NCBI RefSeq assembly: GCF_944388875.1 | Contig: NZ_CALXKQ010000012.1 | Span: forward strand, 1 to 64,000 | Direction: 5' to 3' | Source of the DNA: an uncultured Brachyspira sp. | GTDB taxonomy: Bacteria; Spirochaetota; Brachyspiria; Brachyspirales; Brachyspiraceae | DNA: 64,000 bases | Shown: positions 48,792-62,641 of the stretch, piece after piece | How the letters are laid out: each line of letters begins with the position of its first letter | Position numbering within the stretch: the stretch's first letter is position 1 | Notes under the pieces: model-generated | Told to the model about the DNA's origin: nothing | The model's input: only the letters and a program-made list of their open reading frames with translations | The model's database searches: none | Position numbers and translations under genes: made by a program

Positions 48792-49646
48792 TTATTTTAA
48801 GAAATCTTTTAATGAATTAAATTTCTGAGAATGCATTTTTCTTAATGCTTTTTTTTCTATTTGTCTGATTCTCTCTTTCGTAAATGAAAACATTTCTCCA
48901 ACTTCTTTTAATGTTTTTCTCTCTTGATCTATACCATATCTAGCATTTATTATCTGCTTTTCTATATCTGAAAGATTTTCAATAGCAACTTTTAATTCTT
49001 CCATAAGTTCTTTATTTGTAATGGTATCCTCTACCGTTTTTGCTGTTTTATCTTCTATTGTATCTATAAGCCTGTCTTTCATACCTTCATAATTATATTC
49101 TCCTTCAAGAGAAATATGTTCTGTACTCATAGACATAATATGAAGTATATCATTAGGGTCTTTTTTTAAAATAGCGGCAAGCTCATTTACATCAGGAGTA
49201 TATCCGCTTTTATAATAGTATTGATGCACAGCACGTTCTAAATCAACTAAATCCATAGCCTTATTTAATGGAAGTCTTATTAATCTTGATTTTTCATTGA
49301 TAGCTCTTAATATGCTCTGTCTAATCCAATAAACAGCATAAGAAATGAAATGGTATCCTTTATCAGGGTCAAATCTGTCTGCAGCTATAATAAGCCCCAA
49401 ATTACCCTCACTAATTAAATCCTCTAATAAAAGCCCGCTGTTTTTATATTGCTTAGCTATAGTTATAACAAACCGCAAATTACTTCTAATAAGTTTTGAA
49501 CGGGCTTCAGCATCTCCTTCTTTAAGCCTTTTTGTTAACTCTATTTCCTCTTCACGTGTTAAAAGTTTTTCCTTTTTTGCATCAGAAAAATATAAGGATA
49601 TATTATTTTGTTCTTCTGTATTCGATTTCAATCTGCTATCAGCCAT
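48792..49646 (-). CDS. Short sigma-70 factor (group 2-like)
   Basis: 284 aa from the ATG at 49646; a TTG at 49667 is possible but has no ribosome site. Region 1.2 (ISLYFSDAKKEKLLTREEE), region 2 (NLRFVITIAKQYKNSGL, then DLISEGNLGLIIAADRFDP and FISYAVYWIRQSI), region 3 and region 4 (LSDIEKQIINARYG, FTKERIRQIEKKAL) are intact. It lacks the N-terminal region 1.1 and the long non-conserved region of a primary RpoD, so it is closer to RpoS-like secondary factors. It could also be the main sigma of a reduced type. Regulon unknown. Confidence 0.85.
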   Translation of the reverse strand: MADSRLKSNTEEQNNISLYFSDAKKEKLLTREEEIELTKRLKEGDAEARSKLIRSNLRFVITIAKQYKNSGLLLEDLISEGNLGLIIAADRFDPDKGYHFISYAVYWIRQSILRAINEKSRLIRLPLNKAMDLVDLERAVHQYYYKSGYTPDVNELAAILKKDPNDILHIMSMSTEHISLEGEYNYEGMKDRLIDTIEDKTAKTVEDTITNKELMEELKVAIENLSDIEKQIINARYGIDQERKTLKEVGEMFSFTKERIRQIEKKALRKMHSQKFNSLKDFLK

Positions 49647-49724
49647 AATATCATAACTCTTAAACAAAATTTATGGTGTATTATTTTACCATTTTTATAT
49701 ATAAAATCAATATAATCTAATTTT

Positions 49725-51017
49725 TCATAAATACCTATTAGCAAGATCATGAACGACAGAGTGATTAAATGAATGAGATGATTTATTGGCTATTATTTTA
49801 GCTTTTATAGGTCTGGATAAAATATATAAATCTCCTATTATATCTAGAATTTTATGCCTTACAAATTCATCCTCAAAATGTAATTTAGTATTTATCACTT
49901 TTCCGTCACATAGTAATATATGGCTGCCTATCATACCGCTTCCTGCCATCCCCATTTTTTGGGCATAGTCTATATTATCTATAGTATTAAATGATCTAGC
50001 TCTTCCTATTTCATTAGTAAATTGATCAAAATTTTCAAATTTATATGTATATTCCTGCACACCTATAGTACCAGCAAAATCTATACGCAAACTAACCTCA
50101 AGACCGTCATAAGGAGATAATATAATATAAGTTTCATTATCATTAACGTTTCCGTAAGTTAAAGTCTGATCTATAACTATAGGTTCAACATAATCATCCT
50201 GTTCAACATAACCAGCATCTTTTAAAGCCTCGCAGAATACTAAAGCAGAACCATCAACATTTGGTACTTCTCCGTCGCATTTAACTATCAAATTAGTTAT
50301 ACCCATCATGTGAAGTGCTGCTAAAAAATGTTCTGTAGTTTTTATATATCTGCTGCCTGATACCAAAGCAGTAGAATTAACAGCTCCTGATTTGTCTTTT
50401 GATAAAATATTGTCATGTGAAAGTTTTATATGAGTATTAGTATTAATATCAACAAATACTATGCCAGTATTTACTTCAGCAGGAACTAAAGTTAATGCGG
50501 TTTTTCTTCCTTCCATAAGGGCAAAACCGCTTACAACTACACTTTTAGCTATTGTTCTCTGAGCTACTTTATATTTACATTGATGTTTTTTATTAAAACT
50601 CATATTATCACAGCATTCTTTAGAAACATCTCTATCCTCATGTTCTTTAAATACTTCATCGCAGCTTGATAATAATTTTGAAATACTTATAGGCTTTTCT
50701 AAAAAATCATAAGCCCCTATCTTTGTAGCCCTTACAGCTGTTTCTACTCCAGCATGTCCACTCATCATAATAACTGTTATAGAAGGAAATTTATCTTTTA
50801 TATTAGTTAAAATATCAAGTCCATCAATATCAGGAAGCCATACATCTAAAAATACCAAATTTATACTATTATCTTCTAAAATCTTTAAAGCTTCATTATA
50901 GTTTTTTGCTATATATACATCATATCCCTCATCTTCTAAAATGCTTTGACAAGTTGTGAGTATATCTTCTTCATCATCTATAATTAATATATTCTGTTTA
51001 ATTTTTACATTCTGCAT
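49725..51017 (-). CDS. lpxC: Response-regulator receiver fused to LpxC deacetylase
   Basis: 430 aa. Residues 1-125 are a receiver domain with all key residues: Asp14 and Asp15 (acid pocket), Asp58 (phosphorylation, in LVFLDVW), Ser86 (MSGHAG) and Lys108 (LEKPIS). A Cys-rich linker follows (126-150). Residues 152-430 are LpxC: the catalytic Glu229 and zinc His230 in TTEHFLAAL, zinc His387 and Asp391 in DEFVRHKILD, and His414 in KSSHSFN. LpxC makes the first committed step of lipid A. The fusion suggests that phosphorylation, by a kinase not seen here, could tune lipid A synthesis. The domain pair occurs in one uninterrupted frame, so it is not an assembly error. Confidence 0.93.
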   Translation of the reverse strand: MQNVKIKQNILIIDDEEDILTTCQSILEDEGYDVYIAKNYNEALKILEDNSINLVFLDVWLPDIDGLDILTNIKDKFPSITVIMMSGHAGVETAVRATKIGAYDFLEKPISISKLLSSCDEVFKEHEDRDVSKECCDNMSFNKKHQCKYKVAQRTIAKSVVVSGFALMEGRKTALTLVPAEVNTGIVFVDINTNTHIKLSHDNILSKDKSGAVNSTALVSGSRYIKTTEHFLAALHMMGITNLIVKCDGEVPNVDGSALVFCEALKDAGYVEQDDYVEPIVIDQTLTYGNVNDNETYIILSPYDGLEVSLRIDFAGTIGVQEYTYKFENFDQFTNEIGRARSFNTIDNIDYAQKMGMAGSGMIGSHILLCDGKVINTKLHFEDEFVRHKILDIIGDLYILSRPIKAKIIANKSSHSFNHSVVHDLANRYL

Positions 51018-53449: not shown

Positions 53450-54364
53450 CTATAGATATTGTGCTTTCCTTGCTGTAATATTTTCTATTCTTTCAGCAAT
53501 TGTAATATATCCTAGAGAGGAAATCAATCTCTGATGATTATAAAAATGCGTATATTCATTTAATTTTTGTTTTAAGACTTCTACAGTTATTTTTTTATTC
53601 AATCTTGAATAAAATTCTTTTTCATCTATTCCATGTACTCTTTCTACTACGCCGTTATATCTAGGTACTGCCACGGGAATATACTTTCGTTCCAATTTAT
53701 TTTTCAAACAATATTCATCAAAAATATTTATTTTAGAAGTATTAAGACAGCGGTATGTATATTCTGTACCATTATCTGTCTGTATTGATTGTATATTAAA
53801 AGGGGAAGTTGTTAAAACATATTTCAAGAATGATAAAGCACTGGATGGTGTTTTATCGTCCCAAGTATAACGTGTGGCTAAATCTACAGCAGTGAACTGA
53901 TAAACAGTTTTTCTGCCAAGTTTAATATATTTTGTATCTATTTGAACTATTTTACCCTCTTTTTGTATTTTAGAAACAAATTTACGTTTATCATAGCGTT
54001 TCTTTTTCCTTTTGACTTTATATCTCCAAATATTATTTCTCTTTAATACATTTTCAATAGCAGTAATCCCTATCTTAATTCCTTCACGATTCAAATATGC
54101 TTTAATATAATGTTTTCCTCTATATTCTTTAGTATAGAGCTTAATAATTAAATCAATGACTTCTTGATTATTAAAAATATGCGGAAAAGTTTTCGGTCTA
54201 GTAGTTAAATTAAAAATAGTTCCCGTAGTTTTATATTTGTTATACCAATGATAAAAAGTAGATCTAGCAATAGAATATTTTTTTAAAAATATTTTAATAT
54301 TTTTAGTTTTTAAAGCTTCCTGAACTATAAATAATTTAAATTCTGTAGTATACTCTTTGCTCAT
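53450..54364 (-). CDS. IS481-like DDE transposase
   Basis: 304 aa. N-terminal helix-turn-helix (YTTEFKLFIVQEALKTK, STFYHWYNKYKTTG) and an integrase core with DDE residues: Asp in QIDTKYI, Asp in QTDNGTEY and Glu in GVVERVHG. Single, full-length, intact frame, so the IS may still be active. Closest to the IS481 / IS3-like group by organisation (one ORF, rve domain). Confidence 0.9.
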   Translation of the reverse strand: MSKEYTTEFKLFIVQEALKTKNIKIFLKKYSIARSTFYHWYNKYKTTGTIFNLTTRPKTFPHIFNNQEVIDLIIKLYTKEYRGKHYIKAYLNREGIKIGITAIENVLKRNNIWRYKVKRKKKRYDKRKFVSKIQKEGKIVQIDTKYIKLGRKTVYQFTAVDLATRYTWDDKTPSSALSFLKYVLTTSPFNIQSIQTDNGTEYTYRCLNTSKINIFDEYCLKNKLERKYIPVAVPRYNGVVERVHGIDEKEFYSRLNKKITVEVLKQKLNEYTHFYNHQRLISSLGYITIAERIENITARKAQYL

Positions 54365-57868: not shown

Positions 57869-58576
57869 TTATTTAAGTTTTTCTATATATTTTTCATATA
57901 TAAATTTGCATACTAATCTTGAATTAAATGCTGATAAATCTCCAAATTCACCCACATATTCATTGCCTATTTTTTCAAGTACATTAATAGAAAAATTAAT
58001 TTTATAAGAGCCTATAGACATAGAAGCATTTTTTATAACATGTCCCACTTCTAAATTTGCCTCTTCAGAAGGCATAATAAATTTTAAACCAATAGGGGAC
58101 ATTTCTATTATCATACCATGAAGTATTTGTCTTACCCCATCATGTCTAAACACAAGTTTAAAATTATCTAAATCATTTATAACTATATGCTTTAATTTCT
58201 TAGGTGTTATATGAGCCTTTTCCAAAAGCATACAAAATCTGCTTAGAAAATCTTTTTCATTAAAAGGCTTAAGTAAAAATCCTGAAACACCTATACGCAT
58301 CATATTGGATATAAACTCTTTTGTTGGTTCTAAAACATGCACTATTACATGCACCCCTTTATATCTATCATCCATATAAATTTTTTCAAGTATCTCAGTC
58401 ATTTCAGTATCCCCTTCATTAGCTTCTATGATAGCTGCTGGGAATGGTCTTTTTCCAAACATTGTAAGAATGTTTTTTTTATCTTTTACTTCTACTACCT
58501 CATAGCCCGCCGTTATTAAAATACTTATAAGACTATCTCTTATTTGCGAAGATGAATCATAAACTAATACTCTCAT
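57869..58576 (-). CDS. Atypical receiver-PilZ protein
   Basis: 235 aa. Residues 1-120 fold like a response-regulator receiver (VLVYDSSSQIRDSLISIL, GVSGFLLKPF with Lys103), but the phosphorylation Asp is replaced by Glu51 (AAIIEAN), the acid pocket keeps only Asp7, and the Ser/Thr after strand 4 is absent. So it may be permanently switched on or act as an output scaffold. The C-terminal half is PilZ-like (RHDGVRQILHG, EMSPIGLKF), a fold that binds cyclic di-GMP. It lies upstream of thiD by 19 bases. Confidence 0.75.
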   Translation of the reverse strand: MRVLVYDSSSQIRDSLISILITAGYEVVEVKDKKNILTMFGKRPFPAAIIEANEGDTEMTEILEKIYMDDRYKGVHVIVHVLEPTKEFISNMMRIGVSGFLLKPFNEKDFLSRFCMLLEKAHITPKKLKHIVINDLDNFKLVFRHDGVRQILHGMIIEMSPIGLKFIMPSEEANLEVGHVIKNASMSIGSYKINFSINVLEKIGNEYVGEFGDLSAFNSRLVCKFIYEKYIEKLK

Positions 58577-58778: not shown

Positions 58779-60221
58779 ATGAAGATTTCAGGATATAATT
58801 TATTTCCGCCATTATTGGGACATATAAAAAATTGGTACAGCCATATTGACAGAATAAAAGATATGGGCTTTGAATGGGTGTACATAAATCCCATTACATA
58901 TACAGGATTCAGCGGAAGTTTATATGCTACAAAATATTATTATCAATATAATCCCGCATTTTTTACAAGTTCAAATCAAATTGAAGCAGAAAAAGAATTA
59001 AAAGAATTTCTCAAATACTGCAATGATAATAATATAAAAATAATGGTTGATCTTGTTATAAATCATTCATCCAAAGACTGCAATCTTGTAGAAGAACATT
59101 TTGAATGGTATAAAACAAAAGACGGAGTACTGCAGTCGCCTGGGGCTTGGGATAATGGAAAATGGATTGAATGGGGAGATTTAGCAAGTTTTAATAATAA
59201 AATAGATCCTAATCAAAAAGATGAAGAAGAAAATAAAGATAATATTAATAACAATGAAAATAAAAATGATGATGAAATTATCAATATAGGAGAAATACTT
59301 AATCCTATATGGTATTATTGGAATGATCTTGTAAAACATAATTTAGAATTAGGATTCAGCGGATTCAGATGCGATGCTGCCTACAAAGTTCCTAAAGAAT
59401 TATGGAAATATCTTATAGATAATGCTAAAAAAATAAATAGTGAAGTTATATTCTTTGCTGAAAGTTTAGGATGTTCTATGGATGATACCAAAAACCTTAT
59501 AAATGCAGGATTTGATTATGTAGCAAGCAGCGCCAAATGGTGGGATTATGAGGGCGAATGGTTTATAGAACAGTATGATTTAGCTAGAAAGAAAACTAAA
59601 CAAATAGCATTTCCAAGCAATCATGATACAAGAAGGCTTATAGAAGAATATAACGGCAATATATGGAGATTAAAACAAACTTTTTTATTTACAGCTATAG
59701 TATGCGATATGTGGATGATAACTACAGGGGATGAATATGGATTTATAAATAGATGCAATGTTGTAGGCGGAAGTGAAAAAGATTATGAAAATATAAATTA
59801 TGATCTTACACAATACATAAGAAATATGACGGAATACGTGAAAAAAAATAATATACTGGCAGACTGCGGAAAAATAGTATCTTTGGACATAGAAGAAAAG
59901 AAAAAAATAGAAAAATTAAAAAAAGAATGTGAAAATAATCAATCTCAGGAATGCCGTAATTTTAATGAAAATAATGAAAAAGAAAACGATAATAAAAAAG
60001 ATCCATTCAGAAAATTTTATAAATATAGCTTGGACGGAAATGATAAACTTTTAATTATAGTGAATATAACTGATAAAAAAGAAAAATTAGATACTTCAAA
60101 ATATGATATCAGAAGCGATATATCTTTAGATAATAGAATAGAAAATCTAACAGGAACTATTGATATGCTTCCGTATCAATTAAAAATATTTACAACTAGA
60201 GAAAAAGCATATTGGGCATAG
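58779..60221 (+). CDS. GH13 alpha-amylase family protein
   Basis: 480 aa with the four GH13 regions in order: DLVINHSS; GFSGFRCDAAYKVP (nucleophile Asp at about 198); FFAESLG (acid Glu at about 227); and FPSNHDTRRL (Asp at about 282). A low-complexity loop rich in Asn, Asp and Glu (about residues 146-168) and another acidic one (about 375-406) interrupt the fold. There is no signal peptide, so the substrate is internal (glycogen or maltose type). Which GH13 subfamily is unclear. Confidence 0.82.
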   Translation: MKISGYNLFPPLLGHIKNWYSHIDRIKDMGFEWVYINPITYTGFSGSLYATKYYYQYNPAFFTSSNQIEAEKELKEFLKYCNDNNIKIMVDLVINHSSKDCNLVEEHFEWYKTKDGVLQSPGAWDNGKWIEWGDLASFNNKIDPNQKDEEENKDNINNNENKNDDEIINIGEILNPIWYYWNDLVKHNLELGFSGFRCDAAYKVPKELWKYLIDNAKKINSEVIFFAESLGCSMDDTKNLINAGFDYVASSAKWWDYEGEWFIEQYDLARKKTKQIAFPSNHDTRRLIEEYNGNIWRLKQTFLFTAIVCDMWMITTGDEYGFINRCNVVGGSEKDYENINYDLTQYIRNMTEYVKKNNILADCGKIVSLDIEEKKKIEKLKKECENNQSQECRNFNENNEKENDNKKDPFRKFYKYSLDGNDKLLIIVNITDKKEKLDTSKYDIRSDISLDNRIENLTGTIDMLPYQLKIFTTREKAYWA

Positions 60222-60241
60222 ATTTTAAAGGTGTTTTAGTT

Positions 60242-62641
60242 ATGGAAGAGAGAAAATCTATAGACAGTTTTTTTTCAGATCTATCTATGGGTCTGCTTTG
60301 GGCTGAAAATACAAATGAAATAGACAGAGTTGTTGATTTATTTTTAGAAAAAACATGTCAATACTATGGTTTTGACTGCGGAGAAGTATATTTTCCTAAA
60401 GGGGATTATCTAATACTAAGAGGCGTATATGGAATAGATAGATACTATGTATGTAAGGTGGATTTTCCAATAGAGGCTACTCATTGTAAAGATATACTAT
60501 ATGAACAAAAAATATATATAGGAGAAAATATTAATCATACAAATATAGAAGTATTTTCAGAGTATTCTTCAATATTTGTACTGCCTATATTCTTTTATAC
60601 CCACCCTATAGGTGTTGTAGTTTTTAGAAATAAAGAAAGCAGGATAGATTTATATTACAGTATTGTAGATGAAATAAAAAATGTTATAGGACATTTTGCG
60701 GTATATGCTAATAATGTTCTTCAGAATGTAACTTATAAAGAAAGGGATAAACAATTAAAACTGCTTAGAGAATTGTATTTAAAATTAAGCGATGTAGATG
60801 ATTTTGAAAACAATTTGAATAATTTAGCATCTGATATAGCAAGCATATTTACAGCAAGCAGGGCTTTCATAAGACTTAGAGATGATAAAAATAATTTATA
60901 TACTAGATCAAGTTATGGTTTTCCTGATAATTTTGATTATTCTATTTTTGATGATTTAAAATATCTGTCAAAATTTTTAGAAAATAATATTTATTATATA
61001 AATAATGCTTCAAAACATGAAGATTATAATAATTTCTCAGGTATAATAAATAGATCGGTATTATTTAATACTATACCTGTAAAAAAAGGATGCATAGGCT
61101 ATATAGTTGTAATAGATAAAATACCTGATGCTGTTAATCCTTTAGGGGATTTTGACAATGAAGATTTGAATCTGTTTAATCCTTTGCTTGCCAATATATC
61201 CAGCAGAATGTCTGAACATTACAACCTTATAGAATTAAGCAAAGCAAATCAAAAAAATACTAAACACATGTCGCGTTTAAATACATTATATGATATAAGC
61301 AATATTTTGTTAGAGCGTTCCAAAACTGAAGATATATTGTTTTTGCTTCTTACTATAGCTACTATAGGTGATGTATTTGCATTTAATAGGGCATTTGCTT
61401 TTCTTTATGACAAAGAATTTAATGTATTTAGGGGGCGTATGTGTGTTGCACCAAAAAGTGCTGACGATGCTGGTATGATATGGAGCAATATGCAGAACAT
61501 GGATAAATATGCTCTTAGAGAAAAATTAATGCTTTCTTTTGATAAGAGAAGTTTAGAAGATTCATGGGATTTAAATCAAAAGTTTTTAAATACAGTAATA
61601 CCTAATAATAAAAACTGTAAATTATTTTTTGATGTATTTAATAATAAAAAAAGTATAAATATAACTGATATAAAAAATAATGAGGAAGTTAATCAAATAA
61701 AAAAATATACTGATATATTTGGTGATTACCCTTTTGCTATAATACCTATAATGAATTCTATAAATTGTATAGGAATGGTTGTGGTTGATAATCCTTATAA
61801 TGGCAAGTCTATACCTGATGATGACTTAGATTACTTAAAAATGTTCGGAAGACAGGCTGCTGTAGCTTTAGAATATTCTTCTCTTTACAATGAAATAGAA
61901 AAAAATAATAATGCTCTTAAAGCTGCTGAGAAAAGTTTATTGGATTTAAAAAGTTTGGCTATAATTGGGGAAATGAGTTCTTCTATGACGCATAATTTAA
62001 GAAATTTTATAGTACCTATAGCTGGATTTGCTAATAGGCTGGTAAAAATAAGTAAAGATGAAACCATTAAAAATTATGCACAAATAATTGCAAATGAGGT
62101 TGAAAATTTAGAAAATTATTTAAGAAGAAATTTATCATTTGCCAAAAGCATTAATTTAGAAATAGATAATATTAATATAGATGATATGATAAAATATTTA
62201 ACTATTCTCTCAAAAGAATATATAAAAAAAAGCGGCAAAAATATTAAATTTTATGCAGTTAAAATTACAAAAGAAAATACTGTAAGATGGGATTATGACA
62301 GAATGAATGACGTTATATCCAATTTAATAATAAATGCTATAGATGCTATAAATGGTAATGAAAAAGATTCTTTTATAAGCGTTATATTTAATGATAATGC
62401 CTATAAAGAATCTATGATAGATATAATAGTTGAAAACACAAATTCATATATAGAACCTGAATTAGCGGAAAAAATATTTACTCCGTTTTTTACAACCAAG
62501 AGTCATGGAGTTGGTATAGGTTTAGCAATATCCAAAAGAATAGTGGAAGCACATGGCGGAAGCATGATGCTTAAAAGCGTAAACGGTAGTTTTAAAGTAA
62601 CAACATTTTTTGTTTCTATACCAGTTAGTTTAAACAATTAG
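60242..62641 (+). CDS. Multi-GAF sensor histidine kinase
   Basis: 799 aa from the ATG at 60242; a frame open to 60212 overlaps the amylase gene and has no ribosome site, while AAAGGTG precedes 60242. Three GAF-like parts (about 20-150, 170-330, 345-550) are followed by a dimer helix with His in MTHNLRN (about 583) and an ATPase domain: N box MNDVISNLIINAIDAI, G box GVGIGLAISKRIVEAHGG. No membrane segment: a cytoplasmic sensor. The receiver proteins encoded nearby are possible but untested partners. Follows the amylase gene by 20 bases. Confidence 0.88.
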   Translation: MEERKSIDSFFSDLSMGLLWAENTNEIDRVVDLFLEKTCQYYGFDCGEVYFPKGDYLILRGVYGIDRYYVCKVDFPIEATHCKDILYEQKIYIGENINHTNIEVFSEYSSIFVLPIFFYTHPIGVVVFRNKESRIDLYYSIVDEIKNVIGHFAVYANNVLQNVTYKERDKQLKLLRELYLKLSDVDDFENNLNNLASDIASIFTASRAFIRLRDDKNNLYTRSSYGFPDNFDYSIFDDLKYLSKFLENNIYYINNASKHEDYNNFSGIINRSVLFNTIPVKKGCIGYIVVIDKIPDAVNPLGDFDNEDLNLFNPLLANISSRMSEHYNLIELSKANQKNTKHMSRLNTLYDISNILLERSKTEDILFLLLTIATIGDVFAFNRAFAFLYDKEFNVFRGRMCVAPKSADDAGMIWSNMQNMDKYALREKLMLSFDKRSLEDSWDLNQKFLNTVIPNNKNCKLFFDVFNNKKSINITDIKNNEEVNQIKKYTDIFGDYPFAIIPIMNSINCIGMVVVDNPYNGKSIPDDDLDYLKMFGRQAAVALEYSSLYNEIEKNNNALKAAEKSLLDLKSLAIIGEMSSSMTHNLRNFIVPIAGFANRLVKISKDETIKNYAQIIANEVENLENYLRRNLSFAKSINLEIDNINIDDMIKYLTILSKEYIKKSGKNIKFYAVKITKENTVRWDYDRMNDVISNLIINAIDAINGNEKDSFISVIFNDNAYKESMIDIIVENTNSYIEPELAEKIFTPFFTTKSHGVGIGLAISKRIVEAHGGSMMLKSVNGSFKVTTFFVSIPVSLNN

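Follow-up and report, generated by a model that had tools for sequence, protein, structure and literature searches.

The receiver-LpxC locus

The window analyzed here is a stretch of 64,000 nucleotides from an uncultured Brachyspira sp. (contig NZ_CALXKQ010000012.1, assembly GCF_944388875.1). On its reverse strand, at 49725..51017, it carries a single open reading frame of 430 aa that joins an NtrX-like receiver domain to LpxC, whose reaction is essential and commits the cell to lipid A synthesis. The receiver (residues 8-122; 50652..50996, reverse strand) is supported by Pfam, response-regulator models, a receiver tree and the alignment of fusions; the Pfam Response_reg model matches residues 10-117 of the 430-aa protein with an E value of 1.1e-29, far over its curated cut-off. 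The acid pocket (D14 and D15), the phospho-accepting aspartate D58 (codon 50844-50846), the Ser/Thr position (S86), the aromatic switch (F105), the lysine (K108) and P109 are all present, as is typical of response regulators. A linker (residues 123-149; 50571..50651, reverse strand) holding three non-conserved cysteines leads to the deacetylase domain (residues 150-428; 49734..50570, reverse strand), which Pfam matches over residues 153-426 (E 2.9e-69; 234 bits against a cut-off of 27) and which passes the TIGR00325 LpxC model with a score of 195.2 against a cut-off of 187.25. Its zinc ligands (H230, H388 and D392) and catalytic residues (E229, K389, D396 and H415) form the full His, His, Asp and Glu, Lys, Asp, His sets of LpxC. 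The claim of the initial annotation that both domains are intact in one reading frame is therefore borne out by the Pfam domains and by every key residue.

The genome (3.1 Mb, 99.99% complete) contains exactly one LpxC match, which is the fusion; a second, stand-alone lpxC that might carry out lipid A synthesis in its place, an outcome the initial annotation had allowed for, was not found there. LpxB is also encoded. As the sole LpxC of an LpxB-encoding genome, the fused domain is predicted to deacetylate UDP-3-O-acyl-GlcNAc. An AlphaFold2 model of the fusion (mean pLDDT 91.1, pTM 0.79) has a receiver helix, residues 112-138, that extends into the linker, followed by a flexible stretch at 139-145 and then the LpxC fold. 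The best solved-structure matches of this model are LpxC structures, and no solved chain among the sequence-matched structures covers both the receiver and LpxC. Near the LpxC active site, the LpxCs of Brachyspirales have two unusual residues, possibly relevant to LpxC inhibitors: Met at position 168, where the LHSG loop normally has His (His19-like), and Ser at position 342, where ARTFGF normally has Thr (Thr191-like).

The next gene downstream of the fusion, also on the reverse strand, encodes a sigma-70 family factor of the RpoS/RpoD-like kind (48792..49667), and a sigma factor adjoining the fusion is conserved in Brachyspiraceae (also seen at loci L037 and L040). A different, RpoH-type sigma factor gene occurs near the fusion in the deltaproteobacterial locus L052. 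Elsewhere in the window are a protein of 235 aa whose receiver is degenerate and has no acid pocket (MRVLVYDSSS; 57869-58576, reverse strand) and, just past glyS, an intact transposase-like ORF of the IS481/IS3 type (53450-54364, reverse strand). A search of the genome for LapB gave one Zn-ribbon match of 494 aa, which is probably RadA, and the model used also matches Gram-positives.

Distribution and selection in spirochaetes

LpxC was present in 110 of the 296 Spirochaetota genomes searched. Every Brachyspirales genome (n=31, with one contig fragment among them) has an LpxC frame large enough for a fusion, and so do members of two other Spirochaetota families (G011 in one, G024 and G035 in the other), while the LpxC frames of other spirochaetes are nearly all about 275-350 aa, with a few longer. 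Twenty large spirochaete frames were read beyond the window and each encodes a full-length receiver-LpxC in one frame, which argues that the fusion is not an artefact of assembly or frameshift; every Brachyspirales locus inspected has the full-length fusion. Within the genus, dN/dS is about 0.05-0.22 for the receiver and 0.04-0.07 for LpxC, indicating purifying selection on both domains, and roughly 0.5-2 for the short linker, which evolves almost neutrally. The Cys-rich linker described in the initial annotation is real in the window species, which has three cysteines. This feature does not extend even to the genus, as congeners have zero to two and most of the distant fusions none. The redox control proposed on the strength of these cysteines finds no support, since they are not conserved across the fusions and lie in a nearly neutral segment, and we have set it aside.

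The fusion in other phyla

The initial annotation had proposed looking for the fusion in spirochaetes and further phyla, and this search showed it to be widespread. The cross-phylum scan covered 84,980 species genomes and the spread it found is a lower bound; counts made by reading-frame length alone are indicative. Full fusions were found in at least two MAGs of the scan, one assigned to "Deltaproteobacteria" (L052) and one to Thermoanaerobaculales (L053), and longer fusions were among the scan matches listed for Nitrospinota (L054 and L055). Each of these four genomes has one LpxC, the fused one. By frame length, 63 of the 65 Nitrospinota genomes with LpxC (of 77 in total) have it in frames of at least 460 aa, and receiver and LpxC lie in one frame in 28 of 30 Nitrospinota loci inspected. 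Of 58 genomes with a divergent LpxC that were searched again in the "Deltaproteobacteria" phylum to which L052 belongs, 42 have it in frames of 418 aa or more. All large-frame loci fetched from this phylum are fusions, except that of G483 (L174), whose reading frame is broken. In Acidobacteriota, six fusions were confirmed. The receiver-LpxC fusion thus spans at least four bacterial phyla, Spirochaetota among them. None was found among viral contigs, which also gave no sign of a viral origin, and plasmid records contained only separate LpxC or receivers.

Conservation across these proteins is strict at the functional positions. The phospho-Asp, the second acid-pocket Asp, the Lys and the Pro of the receiver are invariant in 82 of 82 fusions, as are the LpxC residues corresponding to E229, H230, H388, K389, D392, D396 and H415; at the first acid-pocket position, 78 have Asp and four have Glu. 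Two apparent giant fusions, L172 (1354 aa) and L173 (934 aa), proved to have N-termini that are out-of-frame readings over the upstream kinase gene. Five large Acidobacteriota LpxC frames (L175, L182, L205, L210 and L211) had no detected receiver and were excluded from the fusion count. Two of these (L175, 4946-6745, and L182, 4987-6375, both reverse strand) have N-terminal extensions of about 160-300 aa, and that of L175 matched no Pfam family.

The fused LpxC is a separate subfamily

Maximum-likelihood analysis of 74 LpxC domains placed a branch with 100/100 support between the 41 fused and the 33 stand-alone sequences. This split is present in all bootstrap trees, and an earlier LpxC tree of 100 rows agrees. 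A constrained tree placing the fused and the ordinary spirochaete LpxCs in one clade was rejected (AU p 0.0005). Together these results indicate that Brachyspirales did not add a receiver to the LpxC they had inherited. They hold a different LpxC, which would most simply have come by horizontal transfer, and this may explain why B. hyodysenteriae was misplaced in an earlier phylogeny of lipid A genes (PMC3087551).

Probable origin from an NtrX-like regulator

The longer fusions point to the source of the receiver. Those of Nitrospinota and some Deltaproteobacteria have the order receiver-AAA+-LpxC, with sigma-54-type AAA+ and lid domains over their Pfam cut-offs. In the Nitrospinota protein L195, positions 3-451 of the 452 of the NtrX model match residues 5-446 (E 8e-109), and LpxC begins at 466. 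NtrX is also the best response-regulator model for the window receiver (1e-32, under the full-length cut-off). The NtrX equivalog cut-off (NF051870, 600 bits) is not reached, with 113.7 for the window protein and 364.5 for the best fusion tested, and so "NtrX-like" is the safe term. By Pfam the window protein is a receiver-LpxC without AAA+ or HTH, and it does not have the receiver-AAA+-HTH layout of NtrX. One Nitrospinota fusion (L196, 734-2260, forward strand) has, between its two domains, just the remnant of a Fis-type HTH and is an apparent intermediate in the loss of AAA+.

Stand-alone genes in the order lpxC-ntrY-ntrX were found at five loci (L081, L086, L091, L107 and L121), and NtrX gave the best score for each of three regulators scanned from such loci. 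In the receiver tree, the fused receivers group with these NtrX receivers (support 92, from a short alignment of few columns), and other regulators, including the NtrC-like one of Brachyspira itself, fall outside the group. Given these neighbors, fusion of adjacent genes is the simplest origin: an lpxC beside ntrY-ntrX would have become the last part of an NtrX-like gene, and the AAA+ part would subsequently have been dropped in several lines, Brachyspirales among them. The AAA+ forms are nested among short forms in the LpxC tree, which makes several losses likely, the Brachyspirales line included, but not proven.

This ancestry bears on the idea that the fusion works in transcriptional regulation and carries LpxC incidentally, a form of moonlighting. 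The long relatives do keep an NtrX-like AAA+, and some a Fis-type HTH remnant, but both are missing from the Brachyspira form. The GAFTGA motif was found in the AAA+ of none of 39 three-domain fusions, a weak point against the idea in that the same pattern also missed three ordinary NtrX/NtrC-like controls. We regard moonlighting of this kind as very improbable.

Candidate kinase partners

In 14 fusion loci a histidine kinase gene lies directly upstream on the same strand, and in several of these it overlaps the start of the fusion by a few bases; those at L172 and L173 were recognized after correction of an over-long ORF. All ten upstream kinases scanned have an NtrY_N domain over cut-off together with HAMP, PAS, HisKA and HATPase_c. 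The two-component control suggested by the initial annotation is thus the natural reading of the fusion, because its relatives lie directly behind an NtrY-type kinase gene.

No kinase gene adjoins the window fusion or any spirochaete fusion examined, and a census of the window's genome found few kinases besides chemotaxis-like ones. Two of these are paired with regulators (contigs C3 and C10), and a membrane kinase on contig C40 (locus L224, 5868-7649) has no functional regulator beside it. This C40 kinase is the best NtrY match of the genome (34% over the kinase core) and forms a clade with equivalents across Brachyspirales, a clade that the kinase tree does not place inside NtrY. HisKA, HATPase and a HAMP domain just over cut-off were detected in it, and NtrY_N and PAS were not, so that it is a candidate partner and not a proven one, albeit the most likely in this genome. 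A precedent for kinase and fusion being unlinked is found in the Nitrospinota genome G298, where the NtrY gene (E 4e-116) is on a different contig from the fusion. The window itself encodes an 809-aa GAF-type histidine kinase with no adjoining regulator (60212-62641, forward strand), which is a rival, second possible partner. A 121-aa receiver-like protein that has seemingly lost its phospho-Asp (FNPN; L224, 5501-5866, forward strand) adjoins the orphan NtrY-like kinase in opposite orientation, and similar small proteins accompany this kinase in L229 and probably in L226.

One alternative is that the receiver acts independently, as a phosphate sink or a scaffold, and has no control over LpxC, the fusion being kept as harmless. 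The nearly neutral linker would fit this, as would the candidate status of the kinase partner in Brachyspirales. Against it, the same join serves as the sole LpxC across four phyla with all phospho-residues invariant, and relatives have kept kinase genes adjoining the fusion; we judge a mere sink or scaffold to be improbable.

Proposed mechanism of LpxC control

From its sequence, we think it probable that the fusion is an NtrX-like response regulator with LpxC as its output, phosphorylated by an NtrY-like kinase and with the receiver altering LpxC activity. An NtrY-like membrane kinase, here most likely the C40 orphan, would phosphorylate D58, and the changed surface of the phosphorylated receiver would alter the attached LpxC by docking, dimerization or release. 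Signals from the envelope could thereby set the flux into lipid A without new transcription. By analogy with other enzyme-output response regulators, one may guess that phosphorylation lifts an inhibition of LpxC by the receiver. To the full account, in which a route from an NtrY-type kinase to an NtrX-like receiver-LpxC had a single origin next to an lpxC-ntrY-ntrX cluster, moved from phylum to phylum and took the place of the ordinary LpxC in Brachyspirales, we would give roughly even chances.

The known controls of LpxC work through the lpxC gene, the quantity of enzyme or its partners. The statement of the initial annotation that LpxC is elsewhere controlled by proteolysis is incomplete: further kinds of regulation are described, among them the transcriptional action of NtrYX and ChvGI on lpxC in alphaproteobacteria (PMC12444477). 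It is established that control in E. coli falls on the amount of LpxC and not on its activity (PMC12444477), and the receiver might likewise govern the location or stability of LpxC rather than catalysis, through recruitment to the membrane or a partner or through exposure to a protease in an RssB-like logic. The fused LpxC part lacks a C-terminal degradation tail of the E. coli kind, so that the receiver could stand in for a degron, and the linker is flexible in the model. However, the chain has no evident protease adaptor or membrane anchor, and its receiver was probably inherited, together with LpxC, from an NtrX-like regulator and not from an RssB-like adaptor. We consider control of location or stability unlikely, and control of activity by the phosphorylated receiver more probable.

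Relation to known systems

The fused LpxC has the full domain, fold and active site of the family (PF03331, TIGR00325), and differs from it in the N-terminal receiver and in forming a separate subfamily in the tree. Compared with NtrYX, it shares the NtrX-like receiver, and its relatives lie behind an NtrY kinase and have an NtrX-like middle part, but its output is an enzyme and not DNA binding, and the Brachyspira form lacks both the AAA+ and a kinase gene next to it. Enzyme-output response regulators are already known in the CheB, PleD and RpfG types, which likewise combine a receiver and a catalytic domain in one chain. Their outputs are signaling enzymes, whereas that of the fusion is an essential, committed biosynthetic step present in a sole copy. 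LpxC is also part of a fusion protein in the LpxC-FabZ of Bacteroidetes, Chlorobi and Verrucomicrobia (PMC3087551), but there FabZ is a C-terminal metabolic neighbor and, unlike in receiver-LpxC, no signaling domain is involved.

Links between regulators of this kind and lpxC have been reported at the level of transcription. A 2025 review lists lpxC transcription as controlled by NtrYX and ChvGI in alphaproteobacteria, and ties NtrYX to lpxC in Caulobacter as well (PMC12444477). NtrYX is reported as a repressor of lpxC transcription in Rhodobacter, where R. sphaeroides without NtrYX had lpxC mRNA up 8.8-fold and LPS about 2-fold, an effect judged to be indirect in that 2020 study (PMC7240162). 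In Desulfovibrio vulgaris, the response regulator DVU2934 has lpxC as its only mapped target, and in S. fumaroxidans lpxC is directly upstream of an operon with the orthologous regulator (PMC3333781); unlike the window protein, DVU2934 acts on the lpxC gene and is not fused to the enzyme. By analogy, the Rhodobacter and Desulfovibrio data may be taken as independent signs of a regulator-LpxC link that is made physical in the fusion. We found no description of a receiver-LpxC protein among 5.39 million open-access papers, and such a protein is also absent from the 2025 review of how lipid A is regulated (PMC12444477). The architecture is presumably listed in domain databases.

In conclusion, a receiver on LpxC would give a sensor kinase a direct, fast and reversible handle on the enzyme, and if this is true, an outside signal could set outer-membrane synthesis directly and not through gene expression. 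The recurrent association of NtrYX with lpxC is suggested to reflect neighboring genes that have merged into one protein in several phyla. The fusion offers a testable system for the long-standing question of which signals set the amount of outer membrane.
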